Shown: positions 2,025 to 8,671 of the stretch, piece after piece
How positions within the stretch are numbered: position 1 is the first letter of the stretch
Layout: the number at the start of each line of letters is the position of its first letter
Origin: Robertmurraya dakarensis
GTDB taxonomy: Bacteria; Bacillota; Bacilli; Bacillales; Cytobacillaceae
Direction of reading: 5' to 3'
Assembly (NCBI RefSeq): GCF_900156875.1
Contig: NZ_LT707409.1
Span: 268,008 to 332,007 of the forward strand
Length of the DNA stretch: 64,000 nt
Program-made: the position numbers and the translations under genes
Notes under the pieces: generated by a model
What the model was told of the DNA's origin: nothing
What the model saw: the letters and a program-made list of their open reading frames with translations, nothing else
The model's database searches: none

Positions 2025-3104
2025 ATGAAGATGAAACAATCATTTTTCAAAAAATTAGCATTTTTTGCTACTATGTTGGCTTTACTTATGCTTGCCGCAT
2101 GCAGCGGTGGAGGAGAAAAAGCGAGTACTGGAGGCAATAATGAAGGAAATGATAAAGAACAAACTTTTAAATTGAGAATGAACTCAACTTATACCCCGCC
2201 TATAGAAGGATCTCCGACTTATATTGCTCAAGAAGAGTTTGCGGAGCTGGTGAAAGAAAAGACCAATGGCCGAGTAGAAATCGAGATCTTCTATAGTAAC
2301 CAATTGGCTGGCCAATCAGAATCCTTAGATGCACTTGCACGTGGTACGTTTGATATACAGGTGACAACGCCGGTTGCTTGGGCTGATAGGATCCCGGAAG
2401 GAAACTGGTCAGCGATGCCGTATGCATGGAAATCAGAAGAACATCTTAGGCATTTACTCCGAAATACGGAAGTAGGAGAATTGTACTCGGAAGCATTGGG
2501 GGATTATGGTGTCAAGCCGTTACACTATTATTTTAGTGCTTCAACAGGCTTTCTTTCCAAGAAACCAATAACAAAGCCCGAGGATGCCAATGGAATGGTC
2601 ATCGCTTCTGTAGGTTCGCTTTTGGGAGATTATTATAAAGCGATGGGAGCTGGAACGGCAAATATTCCATTTAGTGATTATTATGAGGCGCTGCTTCGCG
2701 GAACAATTGATGCGATTGCCTTTCCTTACTATTCTTTAGAATCGATGAAACTAGCGGAGGTAGTCGATTATATCACGATACCGGGCGGGCAGTCTCCTTC
2801 TTTTGGGGTGATCGTGATAAGTCAATTGACATGGGATAAACTCCCAAGTGATCTTCAGGATAGCATTATGGAAGCTTCATTAGAAATTGAAGAGAAAATG
2901 ATTCCGGCATCAAGAGCGTTTACTGACAGAGGGATCGAGTACGCTAAGGAACAAGGGCTAGAGGTAGTGGAAACGACAGATGAGGTTTATCAGGAATTTG
3001 TGGAAATCGCCAAGGAAACATACTGGGCAGGCTTTGCAGATATTAATGAGCGTAGTAAAAGAATGATAGAAGTAATCGAGGAAAATTTAGATTATCAAGA
3101 GTAA
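2025..3104 (+). CDS. Orphan TRAP transporter substrate-binding lipoprotein (DctP family), copy 1
   Basis: This 359-residue DctP-type extracytoplasmic receptor would bind an organic acid outside the membrane and pass it to a DctQ/DctM permease. It has a lipoprotein signal peptide with lipobox LMLAAC near residue 26, then a Gly/Ser linker. Family sequence is visible as NGRVEIEIFYSNQLAGQ, IPEGNWSAMPYAWKSEEH and the LLRGTIDAIAFPYYSLE helix. A GAGGGGGAAAAGG site precedes the ATG. No permease genes follow, which is unusual because TRAP receptors are normally in an operon with QM. It is a close paralogue of the gene at 7592 and more distant from the one at 13443. It may share the DctQM pair at 14618-16553 or be an orphan receptor. 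Confidence 0.88.
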   Translation: MKMKQSFFKKLAFFATMLALLMLAACSGGGEKASTGGNNEGNDKEQTFKLRMNSTYTPPIEGSPTYIAQEEFAELVKEKTNGRVEIEIFYSNQLAGQSESLDALARGTFDIQVTTPVAWADRIPEGNWSAMPYAWKSEEHLRHLLRNTEVGELYSEALGDYGVKPLHYYFSASTGFLSKKPITKPEDANGMVIASVGSLLGDYYKAMGAGTANIPFSDYYEALLRGTIDAIAFPYYSLESMKLAEVVDYITIPGGQSPSFGVIVISQLTWDKLPSDLQDSIMEASLEIEEKMIPASRAFTDRGIEYAKEQGLEVVETTDEVYQEFVEIAKETYWAGFADINERSKRMIEVIEENLDYQE

Positions 3105-3172
3105 AAGCAAGTGATGCTGATTGAGATGAGAAGTAAATTACATTTTATTCGAGTCTTTAGGGAAAACCAAGG

Positions 3173-3201
3173 TTGTGTCCGGTAAATTTCTTTTTGATAT
3201 A
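3173..3201 (+). promoter_or_regulatory. Probable sigma-A promoter of the glutaredoxin-like gene
   Basis: A TTGTGT -35 element (3173-3178) and a GATATA -10 element (3196-3201) are separated by 17 bp and lie about 55 bp upstream of the ATG at 3255. Confidence 0.5.
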
Positions 3202-3254
3202 AGGAGTTTCGTGCAACAGACACAGATTTAATAAGGAAAGGAGGAAGGAAAAAA

Positions 3255-3485
3255 ATGAATGATATCACCGTCTATACAACCAATACATGACCTTATTGCG
3301 ACATGATGAAACAATTCCTTGAGGGTCAAGGATTAACCTACAAAGAAGTAAATGTTCAGTCAGACCAGGAAGCGGCTCAAAAGTTAGTAGAAGAAACAGG
3401 GCAGATGGGCGTTCCGCAGACGAAAGTCAATGGCCACTGGGTCCTTGGTTTTGATCCGGAAACGCTGATGACATATGTTAAATAA
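3255..3485 (+). CDS. Glutaredoxin-like protein with in-frame TGA in place of the first active-site Cys (candidate selenoprotein, or nonsense mutant)
   Basis: A strong GGAGG site precedes ATG 3255. Reading begins MNDITVYTTNT, then meets TGA at 3288-3290, then continues PYCDMMKQFLEGQGL in the same frame for 64 more codons. Glutaredoxins have a CPYC redox motif and a thioredoxin fold, and here TGA sits exactly at the N-terminal (nucleophilic) Cys. The rest is undamaged: the cis-Pro region MGVPQTKVNG and the C-terminal GFDPETLMTYV helix are present and the total of 76 residues is normal. The gene has its own promoter and terminator. A 7-bp hairpin (3316-3332) lies at SECIS-like distance. If TGA is read as selenocysteine the active site is UPYC. 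If not, the gene makes an 11-residue stub and is a recent pseudogene. Restart at ATG 3303 would lose the active site. Confidence 0.75.
3316..3332 (+). promoter_or_regulatory. SECIS-like hairpin downstream of the in-frame TGA
   Basis: TCCTTGA (3316-3322) pairs perfectly with TCAAGGA (3326-3332) around a GGG loop (3323-3325). The loop starts 33 nt after the TGA. Bacterial SECIS elements, as I recall the consensus, have a short upper stem, a small loop with a G in its first two positions, and a loop about 16-37 nt after the UGA. This hairpin meets all three. A 7-bp stem can also arise by chance inside a coding sequence. Confidence 0.45.
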
Positions 3486-3504
3486 GTTTATGTAAGGATT
3501 TTAG

Positions 3505-3538
3505 GAGACCAGATCGTTAGTGATTTGGTCTTTTTTTA
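3505..3538 (+). terminator. Rho-independent terminator of the glutaredoxin-like gene
   Basis: GACCAGATC (3507-3515) pairs with GATTTGGTC (3522-3530) with one G-T wobble, followed by a seven-T run. This shows the gene is a monocistronic unit. Confidence 0.8.
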
Positions 3539-3595
3539 TTTTAATAGAGACAAGAGGAGTCCGCTGCAGGATGCTTTGTTTTTTGATATTAGGGG

Positions 3596-3624
3596 TTTCC
3601 TTTAGTAAAAAAGTATATTATAAT
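3596..3624 (+). promoter_or_regulatory. Possible promoter that originally served the TRAP receptor gene now at 7592
   Basis: A perfect -10 TATAAT (3619-3624) lies 17 bp after a weak TTTCCT (3596-3601). If the two IS copies are removed, the next gene downstream is the receptor gene at 7592. Confidence 0.4.
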
Positions 3625-3633
3625 TTTTATAAT

Positions 3634-3673
3634 TATCTGTATATTTGAAATAATCAAAATTATTATACAGATA
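3634..3673. promoter_or_regulatory. 10-bp perfect inverted repeat, likely operator
   Basis: TATCTGTATA (3634-3643) and TATACAGATA (3664-3673) are exact complements separated by 20 bp, just downstream of the possible promoter at 3596. The TATCTG half-site recurs in the dyads upstream of the IclR gene near 10.8 kb. From here to 3876 I see no supportable gene. Confidence 0.45.
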
Positions 3674-3884
3674 TAAATGAAGAGATTTTTATAGACTTAG
3701 GAAAGGATGGTTCGAGCAGTTCAAGAGGTGATTCTACAGAGGTTGAAGAAATTTTCCTTGAAAACAACTGTTAGGTGGATTATAGCGCAAGGGCCTTTTA
3801 GTAAGTAAGAATTACGTGTGAAAAATGAATAACTTTTTGTTGCAGCATGCATATGAACAATTTTTTTTGCAATCAAAATGGGAA

Positions 3885-5722
3885 GGTAGTGTAAAAAGTT
3901 CTATGAAAACTTAACACTAACCCTTTGATTCCTTCCAGTTTTTATGTGGTAAGGCCACGCAATCGCTCTTGACAAACACGCCAATGGTTTAACAAAAGGC
4001 TATCAAGGGCGAAGAGGACAAAAAGAAGGCATACCAAATAAGCCCTTGGTTGTTTCCATTTTAAACCATTGGCAAGTTCGGTTTGTCAAGAGTTCGCTCC
4101 GCCGATTGCTGAATAGCTTAAGGGCTCTGCTAAACAAAAAGTTAGGCTACCTGTTGCTCGATAATCCATTGTTGGGCTAACTCTATAAGCTTTGTCCAAC
4201 GTGCTGGCATGGTGGGAAGCCCTTGTAATTGAGGGTTTACCACAGGCACTTTTCCTTCTAAGGATGCATGAGGCCGTAGAAAATTAAAATAGGCCACAAA
4301 CAAAGTGACAAAGGATACAGATCCTTTTTCCGAACCAAATCCATGAGTCGAGCGATAGTTGCCTTTAAATGTTCGATTGAGCCTCTCTATAATCTGTTTT
4401 AAAGGTCTGTATTCCGTTGAGACTGGGTCTTCATTTGTAAGCCCAATCACTTGCTTCACATCAAAAGAAATATCATGCTGAGCGAAAAAGTGTTGTGCTA
4501 AAAGATAGATTGGGTTTCCATCCACTACAAAAGTAAGGTCTTTTGGAATCTCTTTCATCTTTACTAACACTTCATCTATCGCACGAATGGCTGACGCTGT
4601 ATCTCGATTGGCAGACACCGGGTAAGATAGGATGATCTTTTTCACTGCGTCAAAAAAGAAAAACAAATAATGCCAGCGTCCATTCACTCGAATATAAGTT
4701 TCATCACCACAAAATTGATCTGAAAGATCATACGGATAGTGATCGACGTAAGGCTTAAGCAAGAGCGCAACACTATTTTCGTAGTTCAATATCGTCTGAT
4801 GAGAAATCATAACTCCGTGAACATCCTGCATAATCGCGGCTGTTTTACGGGCCGAAAGGCCATAGTTTACATGATAGGTCAATATAAGTCCTAAGGTATG
4901 TGGGGATGCATAAATCCTAGATAAATCCACTCTCGGCAACTCTGGTGAATCTTTGGATAAAGGTTGAAATTCAATATGAAACTGACGAAAAATGTATCTC
5001 AGTTTAAATGCCTGAGGGTCCTTTCTAAACCTTTTCTTCTCTTTTGAAGACATTGCGTTTATTTTCTTTTGATAGTAAGAACAATCATTGTTTTTACATT
5101 TGTACACATCAAAGTCTTTACGTTCCTTGATTTTTTCTAGAGTCTTCGAACAATGAGGGCACTTCAAAATGGCCTCTTTGGAATAACGGCTTTTATCATT
5201 GAAAAGACAGGAACAGACTTTGCATAGATACTGTCCTTTATCTCCATTATTGGCATAAAGGTAATCTGATGGAGCACCACACTTTGGACAGTTCATAGAT
5301 TTAGGGACTGAAATTTTTGCATTCTTACGCCTTTGAACAGGTTTAAGGGGTTTCCCGTTTTTCTCTAAGTATTCAGTAAGGAGAAGTTGATAATCGAGAT
5401 TTTCTAGTAGTTCTATGATCGGTAGATCATCTACCTGAAGTTTACGATAGGGTTTATTCACCGGCTGTTCTGTTGGCTTATCAAACATACTTTTACCAAT
5501 TAATAAGGTAAGTAATGTTCGAATCATTTGTTCTTGATAGTTTATAAAAGTTAATAAATAGGTTATAATTTGAGGGTACAAATTGTCACTTCCATTCTAG
5601 GTTGTTGGGTGTGTGGTAACCTCAATTATCCTTAGAATTCAGGGGGTGGCAATTTTTTTGCTTATAAAGCCCTCTATCAAGGTATTTAATAGCCTATTTC
5701 TTATAAAAGTTTTGACAATACG
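3885..5722 (-). mobile_element. IS6-like insertion sequence, copy 1 (1838 bp)
   Basis: The ends are GGTAGTGTAAAAAG on the left and the complement of CGTATTGTCAAAAC on the right. The two ends match at about 15 of 19 positions from the second base. Copies of AATGGGAA lie directly outside both ends (3877-3884 and 5723-5730), an 8-bp target duplication as in the IS6 family. The element contains one transposase gene on the minus strand and is base-for-base the same as copy 2 wherever I compared them. Confidence 0.88.
4142..5581 (-). CDS. IS6-like DDE transposase with zinc ribbons, copy 1
   Basis: This 479-residue transposase has two zinc ribbons (CPKC...CKVC around residues 98-123 and CPHC...CKNNDC around 141-167). 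A helix-turn-helix region (SARKTAAIMQDV) follows near 243-254. The DDE core has D293 in CGDETYIRVNGRWHYL, D354 in FVVDGN and E399 in QIIERLNRTFK. The DETYI/WHYL signature and the 8-bp duplication point to an IS6/IS240-type enzyme, although this protein is about twice the usual IS6 length because of the zinc-ribbon N-terminus. Translation appears to start at TTG 5581 behind a GGAAGTG site. Confidence 0.88.
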   Translation of the reverse strand: MYPQIITYLLTFINYQEQMIRTLLTLLIGKSMFDKPTEQPVNKPYRKLQVDDLPIIELLENLDYQLLLTEYLEKNGKPLKPVQRRKNAKISVPKSMNCPKCGAPSDYLYANNGDKGQYLCKVCSCLFNDKSRYSKEAILKCPHCSKTLEKIKERKDFDVYKCKNNDCSYYQKKINAMSSKEKKRFRKDPQAFKLRYIFRQFHIEFQPLSKDSPELPRVDLSRIYASPHTLGLILTYHVNYGLSARKTAAIMQDVHGVMISHQTILNYENSVALLLKPYVDHYPYDLSDQFCGDETYIRVNGRWHYLFFFFDAVKKIILSYPVSANRDTASAIRAIDEVLVKMKEIPKDLTFVVDGNPIYLLAQHFFAQHDISFDVKQVIGLTNEDPVSTEYRPLKQIIERLNRTFKGNYRSTHGFGSEKGSVSFVTLFVAYFNFLRPHASLEGKVPVVNPQLQGLPTMPARWTKLIELAQQWIIEQQVA

Positions 5723-5730
5723 AATGGGAA

Positions 5731-7568
5731 GGTAGTGTAAAAAGTTCTATGAAAACTTAACACTAACCCTTTGATTCCTTCCAGTTTTTATGTGGTAAGG
5801 CCACGCAATCGCTCTTGACAAACACGCCAATGGTTTAACAAAAGGCTATCAAGGGCGAAGAGGACAAAAAGAAGGCATACCAAATAAGCCCTTGGTTGTT
5901 TCCATTTTAAACCATTGGCAAGTTCGGTTTGTCAAGAGTTCGCTCCGCCGATTGCTGAATAGCTTAAGGGCTCTGCTAAACAAAAAGTTAGGCTACCTGT
6001 TGCTCGATAATCCATTGTTGGGCTAACTCTATAAGCTTTGTCCAACGTGCTGGCATGGTGGGAAGCCCTTGTAATTGAGGGTTTACCACAGGCACTTTTC
6101 CTTCTAAGGATGCATGAGGCCGTAGAAAATTAAAATAGGCCACAAACAAAGTGACAAAGGATACAGATCCTTTTTCCGAACCAAATCCATGAGTCGAGCG
6201 ATAGTTGCCTTTAAATGTTCGATTGAGCCTCTCTATAATCTGTTTTAAAGGTCTGTATTCCGTTGAGACTGGGTCTTCATTTGTAAGCCCAATCACTTGC
6301 TTCACATCAAAAGAAATATCATGCTGAGCGAAAAAGTGTTGTGCTAAAAGATAGATTGGGTTTCCATCCACTACAAAAGTAAGGTCTTTTGGAATCTCTT
6401 TCATCTTTACTAACACTTCATCTATCGCACGAATGGCTGACGCTGTATCTCGATTGGCAGACACCGGGTAAGATAGGATGATCTTTTTCACTGCGTCAAA
6501 AAAGAAAAACAAATAATGCCAGCGTCCATTCACTCGAATATAAGTTTCATCACCACAAAATTGATCTGAAAGATCATACGGATAGTGATCGACGTAAGGC
6601 TTAAGCAAGAGCGCAACACTATTTTCGTAGTTCAATATCGTCTGATGAGAAATCATAACTCCGTGAACATCCTGCATAATCGCGGCTGTTTTACGGGCCG
6701 AAAGGCCATAGTTTACATGATAGGTCAATATAAGTCCTAAGGTATGTGGGGATGCATAAATCCTAGATAAATCCACTCTCGGCAACTCTGGTGAATCTTT
6801 GGATAAAGGTTGAAATTCAATATGAAACTGACGAAAAATGTATCTCAGTTTAAATGCCTGAGGGTCCTTTCTAAACCTTTTCTTCTCTTTTGAAGACATT
6901 GCGTTTATTTTCTTTTGATAGTAAGAACAATCATTGTTTTTACATTTGTACACATCAAAGTCTTTACGTTCCTTGATTTTTTCTAGAGTCTTCGAACAAT
7001 GAGGGCACTTCAAAATGGCCTCTTTGGAATAACGGCTTTTATCATTGAAAAGACAGGAACAGACTTTGCATAGATACTGTCCTTTATCTCCATTATTGGC
7101 ATAAAGGTAATCTGATGGAGCACCACACTTTGGACAGTTCATAGATTTAGGGACTGAAATTTTTGCATTCTTACGCCTTTGAACAGGTTTAAGGGGTTTC
7201 CCGTTTTTCTCTAAGTATTCAGTAAGGAGAAGTTGATAATCGAGATTTTCTAGTAGTTCTATGATCGGTAGATCATCTACCTGAAGTTTACGATAGGGTT
7301 TATTCACCGGCTGTTCTGTTGGCTTATCAAACATACTTTTACCAATTAATAAGGTAAGTAATGTTCGAATCATTTGTTCTTGATAGTTTATAAAAGTTAA
7401 TAAATAGGTTATAATTTGAGGGTACAAATTGTCACTTCCATTCTAGGTTGTTGGGTGTGTGGTAACCTCAATTATCCTTAGAATTCAGGGGGTGGCAATT
7501 TTTTTGCTTATAAAGCCCTCTATCAAGGTATTTAATAGCCTATTTCTTATAAAAGTTTTGACAATACG
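5731..7568 (-). mobile_element. IS6-like insertion sequence, copy 2 (1838 bp)
   Basis: This is an identical second copy in the same orientation as copy 1, offset by exactly 1846 bp. AATGGGAA lies on both sides (5723-5730 and 7569-7576), so the two copies share the central duplication. The right end carries a TTGACA at 7558-7563 that points out of the element. The element ends 23 bp before the start codon of the TRAP receptor gene at 7592. Confidence 0.88.
5988..7427 (-). CDS. IS6-like DDE transposase with zinc ribbons, copy 2
   Basis: This protein is identical in all 479 residues to that of copy 1: two N-terminal zinc ribbons, then the catalytic D293, D354 and E399. Both frames are intact. 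Identity between copies means the duplication is very recent, or kept uniform by gene conversion, or an assembly artefact. Confidence 0.88.
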   Translation of the reverse strand: MYPQIITYLLTFINYQEQMIRTLLTLLIGKSMFDKPTEQPVNKPYRKLQVDDLPIIELLENLDYQLLLTEYLEKNGKPLKPVQRRKNAKISVPKSMNCPKCGAPSDYLYANNGDKGQYLCKVCSCLFNDKSRYSKEAILKCPHCSKTLEKIKERKDFDVYKCKNNDCSYYQKKINAMSSKEKKRFRKDPQAFKLRYIFRQFHIEFQPLSKDSPELPRVDLSRIYASPHTLGLILTYHVNYGLSARKTAAIMQDVHGVMISHQTILNYENSVALLLKPYVDHYPYDLSDQFCGDETYIRVNGRWHYLFFFFDAVKKIILSYPVSANRDTASAIRAIDEVLVKMKEIPKDLTFVVDGNPIYLLAQHFFAQHDISFDVKQVIGLTNEDPVSTEYRPLKQIIERLNRTFKGNYRSTHGFGSEKGSVSFVTLFVAYFNFLRPHASLEGKVPVVNPQLQGLPTMPARWTKLIELAQQWIIEQQVA

Positions 7569-7591: not shown

Positions 7592-8671
7592 ATGAAATAT
7601 CGTATGAACTATTTTAAGAAATTACCAGCTTTAACATTCTTTATGCTGCTGGCTGTGCTGATGCTTGCGGCATGCAGCGGAGGGGGAGAAAAGGCAAATT
7701 CTGGTGGAGATGGAGAAGGGGCTGGTGAAGAAGAAACATATAAACTCAGATTTAACTCACAAGTTCCTCCTTCTGTTGAAGGGTCTCCTACTTATATTGC
7801 ACAAGAGGTTTTTGCTGATATGGTAGAAGAAAGAACAAACGGCCGGGTGGAGATTGAGATCTTCTATAATAACCAGTTGGCCGGTCAAGCGGAATCCTTA
7901 GATGCATTAGCACGCGGAACGATTGATTTGCAGTTTTCTCCGCCGATTGCATGGGCCGATAAAATCCCTGAAGGAAACTGGTCTTCGATGCCATATGCAT
8001 GGAAATCTGAGGAGCATGTACTGCACTTGCTTCGCGAAACGGAATTCGGTGAACTGTATGACCAAGCTTTAGAGGAATATGGTGTGAAAACATTACACTA
8101 CTATTTTAGTGCCGGAGCTGGTTATCTCTCTAATGCACCAATTGCAAAGCCTGAAGATTTAAAAGGAAAGGTAGTGAACTCTTTAGGTCTAGCAAATGAA
8201 TTTTATAAGGCAACCGGGTCAGGACTAGCAAGTATTCCTTTTGCTGATTATTACGAAGGTTTGCTTCGCGGAACGATTGATGTGGTCATGTTCCCTTATT
8301 ATTCCCTAGAGACGATGAAACTTTCAGAAGTAGTAGATTATATTTCCGTACCAGGAGTGAATAATCCTTCTATAGGGATCGTCGCGGTTAGCCTTAAAAC
8401 TTGGGAAAAACTTCCTAAAGACTTACAAGACATTATTCAGGAAGTATCATTAGAAATAGAACAAATGGGAGTACCCGCCTCAAAAGCATTTACAGAGAGA
8501 GGAATTGAATACGGAAAAGAACAAGGTGTCGAGGTTATAGAAATGTCTGACGAAGATTATCAAGAATTCGTAGAGATTTCCAAAGAAACATACTGGGCAA
8601 AGTTTGCGGAAATGAGTGACCGCACGAAGAAAATGGTAGAAATAGTCGAGGAAAATTTAGACTGGGAATAG
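7592..8671 (+). CDS. Orphan TRAP transporter substrate-binding lipoprotein (DctP family), copy 2
   Basis: This is a 359-residue DctP receptor and a close paralogue of the protein at 2025, with the same length and near-identical blocks such as NGRVEIEIFYNNQLAGQ and ESLDALARGTIDL. The lipobox is LMLAAC. The ribosome binding site AGGGGGG survives in the 15 bp before the ATG. The sequence immediately upstream of position 7569 is IS DNA, so the original promoter and leader (near 3596-3876) are now about 3.7 kb away. Expression would need an outward IS promoter. No DctQ or DctM follows. Confidence 0.88.
   Translation: MKYRMNYFKKLPALTFFMLLAVLMLAACSGGGEKANSGGDGEGAGEEETYKLRFNSQVPPSVEGSPTYIAQEVFADMVEERTNGRVEIEIFYNNQLAGQAESLDALARGTIDLQFSPPIAWADKIPEGNWSSMPYAWKSEEHVLHLLRETEFGELYDQALEEYGVKTLHYYFSAGAGYLSNAPIAKPEDLKGKVVNSLGLANEFYKATGSGLASIPFADYYEGLLRGTIDVVMFPYYSLETMKLSEVVDYISVPGVNNPSIGIVAVSLKTWEKLPKDLQDIIQEVSLEIEQMGVPASKAFTERGIEYGKEQGVEVIEMSDEDYQEFVEISKETYWAKFAEMSDRTKKMVEIVEENLDWE

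Follow-up and report, generated by a model that had tools for sequence, protein, structure and literature searches.

A glutaredoxin frame with TGA at the active site

A 76-codon glutaredoxin frame lies at 3255–3485 on the forward strand of the window, the 64,000-nucleotide stretch of DNA analysed here. It opens with ATG (3255–3257), closes with TAA (3483–3485), and has a TGA at codon 12 (3288–3290) as its sole interruption. The features of the locus are as follows:

3237–3244, + strand: ribosome binding site AAAGGAGG, 10 nt 5′ of the ATG, read from the sequence
3255–3485, + strand: putative selenocysteine (Sec) glutaredoxin gene, 76 codons plus TAA, product beginning MNDITVYTTNT-U-PYC; PF00462, 68.8 bits; model mean pLDDT 90.9
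3288–3290, + strand: in-frame TGA, codon 12, at the nucleophile position of (U/C)PYC, read here as Sec
3316–3332, + strand: SECIS-like hairpin TCCTTGA-GGG-TCAAGGA, 7 bp, loop 3323–3325 starting 33 nt after the UGA
3503–3534, + strand: terminator-like stem-loop with a T run, 14 pairs, 4 of them G-C

A first-pass annotation of this DNA had described the frame as intact from start to stop apart from a TGA replacing the first Cys of CPYC, and this could be read directly, with no other lesion. It had also taken the expression signals to be intact. The ribosome binding site AAAGGAGG and the terminator-like stem at 3503–3534 stood, and the promoter did not: a simple scan of 3090–3700 gave no sigma-70-like site upstream of the redoxin gene, and the one site in this interval, where shuffles average 2.2, lies downstream of the gene. 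Ordinary gene calling would probably report an 11-residue peptide here, or a 60-amino-acid fragment without the active site.

Family and fold of the predicted protein

When the TGA was read as a residue, the protein scored 68.8 bits for PF00462 (Glutaredoxin), a model with a cut-off of 22.9. None of the NCBIfam models, for which U was sent as C, reached its cut-off. The best match was the YruB-family model TIGR02196, with 86.0 bits just below the cut-off of 88.55. NrdH (TIGR02194) scored 50.3 against 85.75, and the UXX-star models NF041212, NF041211, NF041114 and NF047338 were all below their cut-offs, the best being NF041212 with 50.3 against 66. The UXX-star, NrdH and YruB labels were not adopted because these curated cut-offs were unmet. 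Two members of the Cys clade described below were scored against the YruB cut-off; L046 passed and L042 failed.

The predicted structure was a glutaredoxin fold of high confidence (mean pLDDT 90.9). The best PDB matches were cGrx2, cGrx1 (Clostridium oremlandii) and Bacillus cereus BC3987. We found that cGrx2 came first by fold (Foldseek E 1.2e-6) and cGrx1 first by sequence, and that the highest query TM-score listed, 0.85, belonged to BC3987 (3ZIJ).

Selenocysteine machinery in the same genome

The window's genome (5.48 Mb, 11 contigs) was searched for selA, selB, selC and selD and for further selenoproteins, as the first-pass annotation had proposed. All components were present over their curated cut-offs: SelA (564.5 bits), SelB (361.9 bits, in a 637-codon open frame), SelD (400.2 bits) and a tRNA-Sec with anticodon TCA (57.1 bits). 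Three further genes of the genome (L148, L153 and L157) contain an in-frame TGA and so resemble selenoprotein genes as well: selD and a pair of formate dehydrogenase-like genes. The SelD frame reads AG-U-GCKIGP around its TGA and has a 7-bp hairpin with the loop GTT from nt 34. In both formate dehydrogenase-like genes the TGA is followed by a codon for H and then by a short hairpin around GGTCT.

The TGA is conserved in relatives

A search of 151 genomes (the window's own and 150 others) showed that at least 25 carry a glutaredoxin gene whose codon 12 is TGA, comprising 24 at 80% identity or more, the own genome included, and the distant G122. SelA and SelB were over their cut-offs in all 25, and SelA was over its cut-off in 109 of the 151; the co-occurrence of the TGA copy with SelA gave a Fisher p of 1.5e-4, uncorrected for kinship. 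Additional TGA copies came from a family search of 193 genomes. When named genomes were scanned, the best 80 of 113 included members from Mesobacillus, Neobacillus, Cytobacillus, Bacillus suaedaesalsae and other taxa; TGA copies occur in records titled Neobacillus mesonae and Mesobacillus subterraneus. SelA was over its cut-off in G314, G564, G406, G122 and G093, and SelB in G837, G596 and G614; G256 and G258 gave no SelA over the cut-off. G256 was removed from the Sec set, as its TGA lies elsewhere in a Cys copy and SelA is not over the cut-off.

For comparison at codon level, 125 loci entered an extraction that required TGA, TGT or TGC, then PYC, then VP; 123 were fitted and two (L143 and L145) were dropped. 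After removal of identical sequences, the set for synonymous sites held 42 different TGA and 51 different Cys sequences. In all 42 different close copies listed, the single internal TGA was at codon 12, and the 41 copies other than the window's own were 79–92% identical to it. Codon 12 was TGT or TGC in the 51 different homologue sequences, the extraction pattern having required TGA, TGT or TGC there. An alignment of orthologues at this codon had been suggested as a check; it revealed that close homologues in other genera keep TGA and that Cys copies exist as well. The expectation that a Sec-glutaredoxin would be unusual in Bacillaceae had to be given up, as the window gene is one of a clade with members in Mesobacillus, Neobacillus, Cytobacillus and other records.

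Several further observations were made during these searches. Glutaredoxin matches with an internal TAA occurred in G014 and G050. Six plasmid records matched, at no more than 66.7% identity, and a phage search for the redoxin gave no match. Two records assigned to Chryseobacterium sp. ISL-80 (L071/L135) and Pseudomonas sp. ISL-84 (L099) hold redoxin genes of Bacillaceae type, and their titles look wrong; the L071 copy is identical to that in G059, a genome of the window's family. Two TGA copies look decayed: that of Salirhabdus (L178/L139, G564) has a broken N-terminal frame, and that of Mesobacillus boroniphilus (L137/L181) has a frame change near the C-terminus.

Downstream of the TGA, dN/dS between the own copy and nine relatives was 0.04–0.10 in the six pairs with finite dS, and among all copies the median was 0.07 and the maximum 0.67 (749 of 861 pairs, dS 0.2–3). 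The protein is under purifying selection downstream of the TGA. This result, together with the shared position of the TGA across 42 distinct copies spanning several genera, the full Sec machinery in the genome and a hairpin frozen at synonymous sites (below), argues against a pseudogene in which TGC or TGT was turned into TGA by chance mutation or sequencing error. TGT and TGC are indeed one base from TGA; with Cys at codon 12, seven codons are one step from TGA, so that a chance hit would fall there about once in seven; and the broken N-terminal frame in Salirhabdus and the late frame change in M. boroniphilus demonstrate that copies do decay elsewhere. Taking both sides, we regard a pseudogene as extremely improbable.

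The hairpin downstream of the TGA

A perfect 7-bp hairpin with a GGG loop 33 nt past the TGA had been reported in the first reading and was confirmed at 3316–3332. PMC13188914 gives a model of bacterial SECIS elements in which the loop has 3–9 nt, the stem 4–16 bp and the distance from the UGA is 16–37 nt, with a G among the first two loop bases and a minimum free energy of −7.5 kcal/mol or lower. The loop (3 nt, GGG), stem (7 bp) and spacing (32) of the window hairpin are within these published limits. The energy limit was not clearly reached: the bare 17-nt hairpin has −6.8 kcal/mol against −7.5, and the hairpin in a 54-nt stretch has −7.6 kcal/mol in four relatives (L030, L031, L036 and L067). 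The own 54-nt stretch favours a different fold of −10.1 kcal/mol, part of which lies where the ribosome would sit. The Cys form L046 folds to −11.0 kcal/mol over 54 nt, as low as any Sec form. Such energies are ordinary, since 62 of 500 synonymous-codon shuffles of the own copy were as low, and 48 of 500 for L046.

We also determined how often a comparable hairpin (at least 7 bp, with G as first or second loop base) follows a TGA triplet in the window. On both strands, 132 of 2616 triplets had one, the own included; in 27 of the 2616 it was also at −7.5 kcal/mol or lower, and the own hairpin (−6.8) was not among these. With this background of about 5%, the hairpin by itself is weak evidence for SECIS. 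A thermodynamic proof was accordingly dropped, given energies ordinary against synonymous shuffles and a similar hairpin at 5% of TGA triplets. What lifts the hairpin above chance is its conservation in relatives, so that the case for SECIS rests on evolution and not on the hairpin taken alone.

In the 42 TGA sequences, codons 21 (TTC), 22 (CTT), 23 (GAG) and 25 (CAA) were invariant, and codon 26 (GGA) had one change. Mean synonymous diversity at these five hairpin codons was 0.0095, versus 0.46 at 49 other codons, and none of 100000 random five-codon sets was as low. In the 51 Cys sequences, the diversity of the hairpin codons was 0.28–0.76, and most Cys homologues had no hairpin. The sole stem change, GGA to GGG, which leaves a G-U pair, belongs to the Salirhabdus copy with the broken N-terminal frame. 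Near-fixation in TGA copies extends past the hairpin, to codons 14–16, 19 and 20.

Five more distant Sec copies were available, G122 and ones from the order and class searches. Four of them, G122 and G406 (both UPHC) together with G596 and G614 (both UPAC), have the loop at nt 33 with the sequence GGA, and their apical pairs are changed yet still paired. The fifth, G837 (L186, UPYC), has a different hairpin of 8 bp with the loop GGT from nt 23, as read from the fold, and is perhaps a separate origin of Sec use. For covariation, 13 chosen sequences (9 close and 4 distant, G837 left out) were aligned. All 91 of 91 cells were paired, and the four distant sequences had two pairs in which both partners were changed. 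None of 500 shuffles reached the covariation score for these 13 sequences, and sliding the partners lowered it; the count of two pairs changed on both sides was equalled by 339 of 500 shuffles. The covariation stands on one deep split, and the four distant copies may represent one event.

Low-level readthrough of UGA occurs in Bacillus. SelB-independent decoding of the codon by a near-cognate tRNA (Trp or Cys) has this general background on its side, and no finding of the present analysis favours it. Such decoding fits neither the synonymous conservation of the hairpin, which TGA copies show and most Cys copies lack, nor the presence of SelA over its cut-off in 28 of 28 TGA genomes (the 25 above with G314, G406 and G564; 17 further TGA genomes lie outside this set). 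We consider near-cognate readthrough very improbable, and decoding through SECIS remains the preferred reading.

Exchange of Sec and Cys

A tree of 97 sequences with codon 12 removed needed 5 Sec/Cys label changes, compared to 32.3 in shuffles, and none of 500 shuffles was as low. Four Cys copies, L082 (G070), L028 (G034), L161 (G258) and L040 (G051), were placed inside the Sec clade. The branch containing them had a support of 96/90, with the individual placements less certain. These copies differ in what is left of the hairpin: complete in L082 (L029/L082), stem kept with the loop G lost in L161, partly decayed in L028, which departs from the Sec form in both loop and stem, and lost in L040. 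No SelA match was found in G258. The SelB of G051 (L189, G051:C1:349800-352900) shifts frame near the position of codon 465 in the own SelB, a change that may be a sequencing error. G034 and G070 have kept SelA and SelB despite their Cys redoxin, so loss of the machinery cannot account for all Sec-to-Cys switches.

The nested copies also bear on the idea that the hairpin is conserved for reasons unrelated to Sec, for instance to stabilise the mRNA or to terminate transcription from the opposite strand. The reverse strand at 3332–3316 does read as a terminator-like site, the stem persists in two Cys copies (L029/L082 and L161), and the synonymous freeze is wider than the hairpin. This idea is opposed by the loss of the hairpin in most Cys homologues, by the departure of the L161 loop and of the L028 loop and stem from the Sec form, and by the loop G and position, which fit the SECIS model of PMC13188914. 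We judge it highly unlikely that the hairpin is kept for a purpose other than Sec insertion.

SpoVK-like and HflX-like genes (named by eye) were both found within 3.5 kb in 27 of 80 named loci, of which 6 were Sec and 21 Cys. This shared setting indicates that one site can hold either form. Closely related Sec and Cys copies, among them some that lie next to these two markers and some that retain a remnant SECIS hairpin, offer matched enzyme pairs on which the reasons for keeping or dropping Sec can be tested.

Genomic setting

The window gene is not at the SpoVK/HflX site; its nearest neighbours are a TRAP substrate-binding gene and transposases, the latter named by eye. Two identical 479-amino-acid transposase-like ORFs (by eye) lie downstream of the redoxin gene on the reverse strand (4142–5581 and 5988–7427), and a 414-amino-acid transposase-like ORF (by eye) lies at 176–1420, and a further copy of it precedes the window. 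Genes for related TRAP substrate-binding proteins (DctP) are at 2025–3104 and 7592–8671, with two more in L150 upstream and transposase-like ORFs between.

When ORFs around 31 loci (29 TGA, 2 Cys) were clustered with those of the window, no window ORF was in the ten clusters common to at least 5 of the 31 loci; three ORFs of the window, lying roughly 6 to 13 kb off, each had relatives at a single Sec locus. The idea of a conserved neighbour of the Sec gene was dropped, as no widely shared cluster includes a window ORF. No copy of the Sec clade was found in six other genomes of the own genus, two of them only 80–81% complete, and one of the six held a Cys homologue of 59%. This absence suggests that the window copy was probably gained laterally.

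Upstream regions of the homologues were found to share a palindrome, TACC-N-GGTA, which occurred within 150 nt in 24 of the 51 Cys and 9 of the 42 Sec copies, where shuffles expect 0.35 and 0.25; in three of the 24 Cys cases it was more than 125 nt upstream. It is seen, for example, upstream of L097, L103, L110, L027 and L043. We take it to resemble a CsoR/CstR-type operator. TACC-N6-GGTA was absent from the 64-kb window. Within 3.5 kb, a CsoR/CstR-type repressor was present at 13 of 80 loci (none Sec), TusA-rhodanese at 19 of 80 (2 Sec) and TauE at 6 of 80 (2 Sec), one member of each of these clusters having been checked by Pfam. Among Sec loci, persulfide-type neighbours were found only at L085 and L086, and the window gene had none.

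Proposed mechanism and role

Collectively, these data make it very likely that the gene encodes a real selenoprotein, a glutaredoxin-family redoxin with Sec as the nucleophile (UPYC) whose UGA would be decoded through SECIS. The proposal of the first-pass annotation that UGA is decoded as Sec draws support from the machinery, from the TGA in relatives and from a hairpin within most SECIS limits. Two of the three results that it had named as refuting, a genome lacking selB/selC and close orthologues that all have Cys, were examined, and both outcomes spoke for recoding. In this mechanism, the 7-bp hairpin, with its GGG loop beginning 33 nt past the UGA, would recruit SelB, which would bring Sec-tRNA-Sec to the UGA at codon 12. 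If Sec were not supplied, translation would be expected to halt at codon 12.

From the frame, the machinery and the conservation, all read in sequence, we infer Sec insertion, and by analogy a reductant may be proposed as well. BC3987 (NrdH) is reduced by thioredoxin reductase (PMC8564101), and cGrx1 is described as a native selenoprotein (PMC7642778). Both are fold neighbours of the redoxin, for which thioredoxin reductase is the probable reductant, as it is for BC3987. The redoxin may reduce disulfides or persulfides, and the persulfide role would stand mainly on the neighbours of Cys relatives. A more far-reaching reading is that of a separate, mobile Bacillaceae Sec-glutaredoxin subfamily for the handling of sulfane sulfur (persulfide) or selenide, partly repressed by a CsoR/CstR-type protein, in which Sec would have an advantage against persulfides and repeated Sec-to-Cys switches, some in place, would leave decaying SECIS remnants; as a whole, we consider this rather unlikely. 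The analysis indicates that Bacillaceae genera represented in culture collections (Mesobacillus, Neobacillus and Cytobacillus) have a conserved Sec-glutaredoxin.

Comparison with known systems

Sec-glutaredoxin (UxxC) is listed as a selenoprotein family in PMC13188914 and PMC9312934. A 2006 survey (PMC1794560) assigns it to Geobacter sulfurreducens, Alkaliphilus metalliredigenes and Moorella thermoacetica; for Bacillales, the survey gives three selenoproteins. Our search of open-licence literature found no published Sec-glutaredoxin from Bacillaceae, so the absence of a report is not established. The Sec-glutaredoxin type is thus already known, and what appears new here, as judged from open-licence literature, is the Bacillaceae clade.

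Compared with YruB (TIGR02196), the window protein has Sec in place of the first Cys. The UXX-star families are likewise glutaredoxin-like and are named (seleno)proteins by NCBI, whereas the window protein has a second active-site Cys (UPYC). The closest likeness is in cGrx1 and the UxxC glutaredoxins (PF00462), with which it shares the glutaredoxin fold, a U(or C)PxC active site and, as predicted, a Sec nucleophile. It differs from cGrx1, which PMC7642778 proposes as the reductant of a selenoprotein MsrA, in being only about 34–37% identical to it and in belonging to another lineage.
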